DNA of 64,000 bases from Alphaproteobacteria bacterium (GTDB lineage: Bacteria; Pseudomonadota; Alphaproteobacteria; Micropepsales; Micropepsaceae), in NCBI GenBank assembly GCA_947473475.1, contig CANJBZ010000008.1:1-64000 (forward strand), read 5' to 3'. Numbering within the stretch: position 1 is the first letter of the stretch; the number at the start of each line of letters is the position of its first letter. Below are positions 4,893 to 6,414 of this stretch, one piece after another. The position numbers and the translations under genes were made by a program. Under the pieces are notes generated by a model. The model was not told the origin of the DNA. It did no database searches and saw only the letters and a list, made by a program, of their open reading frames with translations.

Positions 4893-5762
4893 ATGTTTCA
4901 GATTATCGCGATTGTGCTTTTGTTCGGTATGGTCTTCGGTGGCTACGTCATTTCGGGCGGCCATTTCGAAGTCATTCTGGAATCTCTGCCGCATGAAATG
5001 ATCGAAATCGGCGGCGCCGCCGTTGCGGCTATGCTGCTTGGAAACTCCATTGGCGACGTTAAGAAAACCGTCGGCGAAATCGGCAAGGCCTTCGCCGGTC
5101 CCAAGTGGAAAAAGAGCGACTATAACGATCTGCTCTGCCTTCTCTTCCTGCTGACCAAGACGATGAAGATGAAGGGCATGATCGCGCTCGAAGCGCATAT
5201 CGAAAACCCCCACGATTCTTCGATCTTCAAACGTTTTCCGAGAATCGCCAAAGATCATTTCGCGCTCGATTTCATTTGCGACACGCTGCGCATGATGACC
5301 ATGAGCCTGGAAGACCCGCATCAGGTCGAATCCGCAATGGAAAAGCAGCTCGAAAAGCACCATCACGAAGCGCTGGTGTCGTCCACCGCGCTTCAGAGCA
5401 TGGCGGATGGGTTGCCGGCTCTGGGCATCGTGGCCGCGGTGTTGGGCGTTATCAAAACCATGGGCTCGATCACCGAACCGCCGGAAGTCCTGGGCGGTAT
5501 GATCGGCGGCGCTCTCGTGGGCACCTTTATGGGTGTGTTTTTGGCGTACGGTTTGATTGGCCCGATCTCGACCCGGATCAAAGGCATCGTCGATGAAGAC
5601 GGCCAGTTCTACAAAGTAATCCAGGACATCCTGGTCGCCCATCTGCACGGCAATTCGGCGCAAGTTTCGGTGGAAATCGGCCGTGGCAGCGTGCCGTCGT
5701 CCTCGCAGCCCAGCTTCCAGCAATTGGAACAGTCGCTGAACGCTATCCCGTCCGACGGCTAG
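4893..5762 (+). CDS. motA: flagellar motor stator protein MotA
   Basis: A 289-residue inner-membrane protein with four hydrophobic segments (about 1-20, 36-52, 168-190, 200-222) and a large cytoplasmic loop between the second and third. That loop contains MIALEAHIENP and the FICDTLRMM region typical of MotA. The ALGIVAAVLGVIKTMG segment holds the conserved proline region of the proton channel. MotA works with MotB, which is not in the window. Upstream, AGGCCTTGGGCTTGC (4841-4855) has GG and GC at sigma-54 spacing but is a weak match. The 3' end overlaps a small minus-strand frame by 20 nt. Confidence 0.93.
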   Translation: MFQIIAIVLLFGMVFGGYVISGGHFEVILESLPHEMIEIGGAAVAAMLLGNSIGDVKKTVGEIGKAFAGPKWKKSDYNDLLCLLFLLTKTMKMKGMIALEAHIENPHDSSIFKRFPRIAKDHFALDFICDTLRMMTMSLEDPHQVESAMEKQLEKHHHEALVSSTALQSMADGLPALGIVAAVLGVIKTMGSITEPPEVLGGMIGGALVGTFMGVFLAYGLIGPISTRIKGIVDEDGQFYKVIQDILVAHLHGNSAQVSVEIGRGSVPSSSQPSFQQLEQSLNAIPSDG

Positions 5763-5925
5763 TCGTCGTCCTGTCGACGGCGGCGTGACCGATCGCCGAG
5801 AGGAAGGTTGCGAAGGCCCCCGCGAGGATACCTACGGGGATGGCATAGAGCACGTCCATGTCCGATCCGGTCACGACGATCGTCGTGACGCAGAGCCCGG
5901 TCCATTGCGCGAGATTGAGCCGCAT
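5743..5925 (-). CDS. small two-span membrane protein, hypothetical
   Basis: A 60-residue frame preceded by AAGGGAA 6 nt before the ATG. It begins MRLNLAQWTGLCVTTIVVTG and has two short hydrophobic stretches (about 8-20 and 24-47), ending in an RTTTSRRTG tail. No family is recognised. Its end overlaps the end of motA on the other strand by 20 nt, which is unusual but possible. The good ribosome site and hydrophobic pattern are the only support. Confidence 0.4.
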   Translation of the reverse strand: MRLNLAQWTGLCVTTIVVTGSDMDVLYAIPVGILAGAFATFLSAIGHAAVDRTTTSRRTG

Positions 5926-6115
5926 GTTTTTCCCTTACCCGTAGGAAAGCACTCTAGCTGCTGAACGGGTTTGGCTGAAGACGATGCTTAAGGAAAGGTT
6001 AATGCGGCTCCTGACGCGCGGGGATACGGATCGGCCTCCGCCCCCTCCGTCGCGCTGCGCGCGCAACCACCCCCGCTGCGCTGCGCTCCGCAGGGGAGGA
6101 GCAAATTGAAACAAG

Positions 6116-6143
6116 AAGGGCCCGCGCGTTGGCGCGAGCCCTT
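6116..6143 (-). terminator. terminator of the miniature rreB-like transcript
   Basis: On the minus strand, AAGGGCTCGCGC pairs with GCGCGGGCCCTT (one mismatch in the upper stem) across a 4-nt loop, followed by CTTGTTTC. It lies 45 nt after the TAG of the 22-codon gene and would end a transcript of about 175 nt. Confidence 0.6.
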
Positions 6144-6187
6144 CCATTGTCTACCGCTACACTCAGACCAGCGGGAAAACCGTCGTG

Positions 6188-6256
6188 CTATGCGCCGATT
6201 ACTCCGGCGCAGGCGACGACCCAGCTAGCTGACCTCGGATGAAGACAATGAGACAC
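6188..6256 (-). CDS. 22-codon microprotein gene with extended Shine-Dalgarno (rreB/rreR-like)
   Basis: GTG start at 6256, stop TAG at 6188-6190; the peptide reads MSHCLHPRSA then SWVVACAGVIGA. The core AGGAGG is 7 nt from the GTG, and the whole 17 nt from 6272 to 6256 is complementary to the 3' end of alphaproteobacterial 16S rRNA. This combination of extended site, GTG start, very short frame, and own promoter and terminator matches the published rreB gene of Bradyrhizobiaceae (14 codons) and rreR of the Rhodobacter lineage (18 codons). In that system the over-strong site and GTG limit translation. That the same control applies here is inference. Confidence 0.7.
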   Translation of the reverse strand: MSHCLHPRSASWVVACAGVIGA

Positions 6257-6272
6257 TGGATCACCTCCTTTC
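6256..6272 (-). promoter_or_regulatory. 17-nt extended Shine-Dalgarno sequence
   Basis: Minus-strand GAAAGGAGGTGATCCAG is the full complement of CTGGATCACCTCCTTTC, the 3' tail of 16S rRNA. Normal ribosome sites pair over 4-8 nt. The last base of the pairing region is the G of the GTG start codon. Confidence 0.8.
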
Positions 6273-6290
6273 GTAAGTTGCGGAAACCAA

Positions 6291-6319
6291 AAGGTAGGAA
6301 GCAACGCGCCAAATGGCAA
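6291..6319 (-). promoter_or_regulatory. candidate housekeeping promoter of the miniature transcript
   Basis: TTGCCA (6319-6314) and TACCTT (6296-6291) are separated by exactly 17 nt on the minus strand. Initiation near 6284 would give a leader of about 28 nt before the GTG and place the whole ribosome site in the transcript. Confidence 0.45.
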
Positions 6320-6414
6320 CGGCGTACGCAGCAGGTTCTGTAAATTTATCGCCACCCCGCGCCCCCTTCGTCGCGCTTTGCGCGCCACTCCCCCCGCGAG
6401 CGGGGGAAGAAAGG

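Follow-up and report, generated by a model that had tools for sequence, protein, structure and literature searches.

Comparison of about 250 relatives suggests that a switching RNA fold, and not the peptide, was preserved by evolution in an alphaproteobacterial mini-gene of the CC2171 family

The small gene rreB of the Bradyrhizobiaceae, said to have been described by Hahn et al. in 2017, reportedly comprises 14 codons on an mRNA of about 165 nt, with a 17-nt site and a GTG start, and rreR of the Rhodobacter/Roseobacter lineage (Rhodobacterales) is said to comprise 18 codons. A further described element is CC2171, a Caulobacter sRNA family held in Rfam as RF01867. The locus treated here lies on the minus strand of a 64,000-nt stretch of DNA from a member of the Micropepsaceae (assembly GCA_947473475.1, contig CANJBZ010000008.1, positions 1 to 64,000), which as a whole is referred to as the window. 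Its mini-gene was scanned against RF01867 using cmscan and matched model positions 1–159 of 159 with 77.1 bits (gathering score 75, E 2.2e-16); scored inside a longer stretch, the same locus gave 74.6 bits, slightly under the gathering score. By sequence match, the element is thus a full-length, above-threshold member of the CC2171 family and already catalogued. The remark of an earlier note on this DNA, that annotation pipelines miss such genes, therefore does not apply to this element, which is not missed by all annotation, and the kind of element is already known (Rfam CC2171; rreB-like). With the CC2171 model, the element was found in 62 of 96 genomes of the host's taxonomic family. Second, weak matches to the model were seen at G002:C286 (30.7 bits) and G011:C110 (29.3 bits), possibly diverged paralogues. 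Among 20 representative loci of other types, CC2171 apart, none reached the Rfam threshold for this element. Since the host family is not close to Brevundimonas (Caulobacteraceae; MoxR 76–81% identical) and its 16S is 87% identical to that of Bosea, the CC2171 element spans deep branches of the class.

The features of the mini-gene are collected in Table 1. Read on the minus strand, the promoter-like pair with 17-nt spacing that the earlier note had described was recovered as TTGCCA and TACCTT, and the GTG seven bases after AGGAGG, the 22 codons and the hairpin terminator were likewise all present. A consensus promoter scan gave no call for the promoter of the mini-gene; in two relatives of the same genus (L003 and L004), TTG-N-TA was retained at the promoter position while the remaining upstream region diverged. 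The terminator scan returned a stem of 14 bp, 10 of them GC, with a T-rich stretch next to it. From a transcription start at about 6284–6280, an RNA of about 170 nt is predicted; about 175 nt had been expected before.

Table 1. Feature coordinates of the minus-strand mini-gene (6319–6110) in the window
Feature	Position	Strand	Basis
-35-like hexamer TTGCCA	6314..6319	(-)	sequence; TTG kept at the equivalent place in same-genus relatives L003/L004
-10-like hexamer TACCTT	6291..6296	(-)	sequence; 17-nt spacer after TTGCCA; relatives TTACTT / TAACTT
whole RNA = Rfam RF01867 CC2171, model positions 1-159 of 159	6117..6280	(-)	cmscan
extended Shine-Dalgarno (SD), 17 nt, GAAAGGAGGTGATCCAG	6256..6272	(-)	complementary to relatives' 16S 3' ends CTGGATCACCTCCTTTC
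mini-ORF, GTG start (6256-6254), 22 codons, peptide VSHCLHPRSASWVVACAGVIGA, TAG (6190-6188)	6188..6256	(-)	translation; in-frame stop distance conserved in relatives
P1 stem 5' strand CAUUGUC (codons 3-5)	6244..6250	(-)	alignment pairing
internal anti-SD CUGGGUC around Trp codon	6218..6224	(-)	partner = GAUCCAG of SD
P1 stem 3' strand GACAAUG, adjoining terminator	6145..6151	(-)	alignment pairing
intrinsic terminator GGAAGGGCUCGCGC-CAAC-GCGCGGGCCCUUCU	6114..6145	(-)	terminator scan; compensatory changes in alignment

As the source assembly holds no 16S gene, the SD was compared with the 16S of relatives. The 16S of same-family relatives ends in CTGGATCACCTCCTTTC, with two of these 3'-end loci confirmed as 16S, and all 17 of 17 positions were complementary to the SD of the mini-gene. 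The full complementarity claimed in the earlier note thus stood, with the correction that the 17th base is the G of the GTG. One mark of rreB/rreR-like small mRNAs is a complementarity to the 16S 3' end that extends over 16 nt or more and lies immediately ahead of a short ORF, and the mini-gene shows this mark with its 17 of 17; the predicted duplex of SD and 16S tail amounts to -35 kcal/mol. The 14-mer AAAGGAGGTGATCC occurred once in the 3.87-Mb assembly with one mismatch allowed and the reversed control had no match, so that the extended SD is not due to chance.

Searching related genomes for the extended SD followed by a short frame, as had been proposed, recovered the same design across Alphaproteobacteria. 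The pattern AAGGAGGTGATC with a start codon 1–3 bases on was found in 113 of the 387 genomes searched within the class (reversed control: 4 genomes). When 397 genomes of the phylum were searched with a stricter pattern, 78 were positive, every one of them belonging to that class (control 0), and the genomes from other classes, numbering more than 200, gave no match; the pattern's AAAGG corresponds to the alphaproteobacterial 16S tail, and a gammaproteobacterial analogue with TAAGG would escape it. Named genomes yielded at least 119 stretches, and among the matches listed, the records with specific titles were alphaproteobacterial. Several subfamilies were distinguished: Bradyrhizobium (14 codons, VSYLKRCHLAGIAR), Rhodobacterales (18 codons, VSRVILERGVGT...), sphingomonads (18 codons, MSHGSA...), rhizobial and rhodospirillal forms (21–32 codons, MSS...) and forms like that of the window (20–26 codons, VSHC...W..., here window type). 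By length and taxon, the 14-codon Bradyrhizobium form matches rreB and the 18-codon Rhodobacterales form matches rreR. Recovery of 14-, 18- and 20–26-codon types through a common SD design bears out the earlier view of the mini-gene as a stand-alone rreB/rreR-like unit and a longer relative of these genes.

Some members of the collection deviated. In Azospirillum and others (L066, L109, L237, L168, L114), the same extended SD and start preceded frames of 56–59 codons whose products look small and secreted, with signal peptides; the SD design may here serve another kind of product. The genomes G453, G047, G145, G307, G477 and G402 each had two or three sites at which a start codon followed an extended SD, with two different mini-ORFs of 24 and 18 codons in G047. 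The element was also kept, in an MSS...EQPL form (L127, L128), in AT-rich genomes of the class of 1.4–2 Mb (G370, G221), suggesting retention in reduced genomes.

The mini-gene had no neighbouring gene in common with the loci of relatives, even within the genus, which disfavours a leader function and favours autonomy. A short ORF followed by a terminator would suit a leader or attenuator of a downstream gene, and the resemblance of the plus strand to the 16S 3' end would suit a stray 16S gene fragment; against these, the neighbours are unconserved, the 16S similarity ends at the tail and the SD lies inside the full CC2171 model. An attenuator of a neighbouring gene was ruled out for lack of synteny, and a 16S pseudogene fragment because the similarity is confined to the tail and the full CC2171 model is matched, leaving this pair of readings with next to no probability. 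The mini-gene is bracketed by a 38-nt GC-rich direct repeat in two copies of 84% identity (6039–6076 and 6360–6397). At G000:C2:77310, 24 nt matched the downstream edge of the 261-base query. A candidate 60-codon membrane-like ORF lies at 5743–5925, on the minus strand like the mini-gene and about 190 nt beyond its terminator.

The frame was then compared as frame and as peptide. The start codon followed GGAGG by seven bases in 248 of 253 elements, a count obtained with search patterns that admitted only a narrow spacing range. In-frame stops fell within an interquartile range of 23–25 codons for the window type, with 24–26, 18, 18 and 14 codons for the other subfamilies, and those of the two other frames scattered. 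Substitutions in the ORF body, taken from 29 independent pairs, were distributed over the codon positions as 131/146/122, the same as in shifted frames; in the positive control, the flanking genes gave 293/227/591 versus 18/25/27 for the mini-ORF. From the SD through codon 4, the RNA was near-invariant, wobble bases included, within a set gathered by whole-RNA similarity. The tight spacing and stop position, together with the absence of a third-position excess in the ORF body, indicate that frame length and RNA sequence were kept and not the peptide body. Lack of conservation of the peptide or the spacing had been named beforehand as grounds for refutation: spacing and ORF length proved conserved, and the peptide body, as a protein, did not. 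Taken together, the comparison of about 250 relatives suggests that a switching RNA fold and not the peptide was preserved by evolution.

It is accordingly very improbable that the encoded peptide of 21–26 residues (VSHC...W...) is the functional product. The VSHC start and the Trp do recur in most relatives, but the early codons are fixed even at wobble bases, pointing to the RNA, the peptides of the subfamilies are unrelated, and the body showed no third-position excess where the positive control worked; on this last ground, a functional peptide as the main product was rejected. For the conserved Trp, a role in the peptide is conceivable that the small substitution test would miss. An unconstrained peptide body would equally suit a trans-acting non-coding sRNA, which would block 16S tails or pair with C/U-rich mRNA targets while its frame stays untranslated. 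This reading agrees with the Rfam type 'Gene; sRNA', and most Caulobacter ncRNA regions are reported as untranslated in Schrader 2014 (PMC4117421), in which, however, two formerly predicted ncRNAs were found translated. As the start spacing is fixed and the in-frame stop distance tight, we consider such an sRNA decidedly unlikely.

For the architecture of the RNA, 36 same-family RNAs were aligned. The P1 stem (CAUUGUC:GACAAUG) was paired in 98.8% of cells of this alignment (A1), and in other subfamilies its sequence differs yet pairs (CATGGTT:GACCATG, GTGAGAT:ATCTCAC). True P1 partners gave 16.0 versus 9.6 for partners swapped between subfamilies (window type); in the 14-codon (rreB) and 18-codon GTG (rreR) types, P1 found no support. 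Within the ORF, CUGGRUC could form a helix with the SD segment GAUCCAG in 92.9% of cells, versus 5–51% when slid. The base preceding the Trp codon was C in 68 of 72 relatives and, where the codon before Trp was four-fold degenerate, in 42 of 47 versus about 40% elsewhere, which points to an RNA-level constraint at the anti-SD. Covariation cannot appear at this pairing because the SD is invariant. An ungapped measure of anti-SD over the whole transcript, with the SD taken without the start region, showed weak enrichment for the window type (median p 0.36) and little for the sphingomonad type, so that the case for the anti-SD leans on the other pairing and fold tests.

In predicted folds, 5' fragments of the mini-gene RNA of 70–100 nt had the SD buried by the SD:anti-SD helix. 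For the full RNA, -77.4 kcal/mol was obtained with the SD free and -74.3 kcal/mol with the SD:anti-SD helix forced, an advantage of 3 kcal/mol for the free SD, whose bases were predicted to be about 31–94% unpaired. Over 83 RNAs of the window type, the SD was predicted to be unpaired with a mean probability of 0.52 when the RNA was complete and of 0.29 when it ended at the stop codon; shuffled sequences gave 0.39 and 0.39. Counted by cluster representatives, the predicted switch exceeded shuffles in 27 of 31 cases for the window type (p 3e-5) and in 36 of 42 for the MSS type (p 3e-6). The predicted switch was absent in the same-genus relative L004 (0.19 vs 0.21), and the rreR-like type showed the reverse tendency, the SD being hidden in the full RNA (0.14) and the anti-SD located in the 3' UTR.

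The main rival to a switch is a plain small mRNA of the rreB type, in which the long SD would hold the 30S subunit at the start, with weak translation and ribosome-dependent stability. SD, spacing and GTG are of identical design in the 14-codon Bradyrhizobium and 18-codon Rhodobacterales copies, the strength of the SD:16S duplex far exceeds every intramolecular alternative, and the anti-SD, weakly enriched by one measure, would be incidental. Bistability above shuffled controls in two subfamilies and the C kept at the RNA level before the Trp codon speak against it, and we rate this simpler account as rather unlikely.

We favour, with a probability of roughly one half, the reading of the window's element as an rreB-like small mRNA that acts as a bistable, ribosome-responsive RNA. 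It would be an autonomous small mRNA with a promoter and a terminator of its own, and its SD would pair with the entire single-stranded 16S 3' tail for very tight capture of 30S. The CUGGRUC within the ORF would mimic the 16S tail and compete for the SD as well: while the RNA is still growing and consists of its 5' part, the SD would be hidden by this internal anti-SD, and once the 3' part is made, P1 (codons 3–5 with the terminator side) and a body hairpin would sequester the anti-SD and free the SD. An initiating ribosome that reads the short frame would melt this full-RNA arrangement, whereupon the anti-SD would close the SD again, so that, in this proposal, every single RNA would limit itself and respond to free 30S. 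That the stop position is fixed would be part of the cycle, and the peptide sequence would be largely a by-product. Sequence, homology, the conservation of frame length and of the stem, the lack of constraint on the peptide and the predicted bistability come from the computational comparison, whereas we infer 30S capture in vivo, a refolding cycle and the sensing of ribosome availability as function.

A catalogued sRNA is hereby tied to rreB-like genes in which the length of the frame, and not the sequence of the peptide, is kept, and with SD:anti-SD and P1, two competing pairings are named at which point mutations could separate the peptide, sRNA and switch models. More tentatively, CC2171, rreB, rreR and the sphingomonad and rhizobial forms may constitute one class-wide RNA family, in which a 16S-tail mimic and the real 16S tail would compete for a 17-nt SD as a bistable sensor of free 30S, with the frame translated and the peptide unselected; we regard this as a possibility somewhat short of probable. 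If the switch were true, a large bacterial class would possess an RNA by which the state of the cell's own 30S subunits is read. To our knowledge, Rfam contains neither the class-wide link nor the bistable reading of the anti-SD, though both may partly stand in existing papers.

Compared with the described systems, the mini-gene shares with CC2171 the 5' end, the SD, P1 and the terminator. CC2171 stands in Rfam as an sRNA without an ORF, whereas the mini-gene has an ORF and a predicted alternative SD:anti-SD pairing, both absent from the Rfam structure; its host, judged by the MoxR of the host family, is not close to Brevundimonas of the Caulobacteraceae. With rreB (Hahn et al. 2017, RNA Biol 14:1353), it has in common the 17-nt SD, the GTG, a short ORF, a small predicted transcript and a terminator; it is not rreB proper, having 22 codons (VSHCLHPRSASWVVACAGVIGA) instead of 14 (such as VSYLKRCHLAGIAR), an unrelated peptide and a P1 that is unsupported in the 14-codon type. 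The SD, the GTG, Ser as second codon and the short ORF are shared with rreR, which differs in its 18-codon ORF, in an anti-SD located in the 3' UTR and in a predicted full RNA that conceals the SD, so that the 22-codon frame is not rreR proper either. As in RNA thermometers and translational attenuators with a cis anti-SD, an internal anti-SD would sequester the SD; unlike these, the element controls no downstream gene, carries an SD of 17 nt and has its anti-SD within the same ORF.
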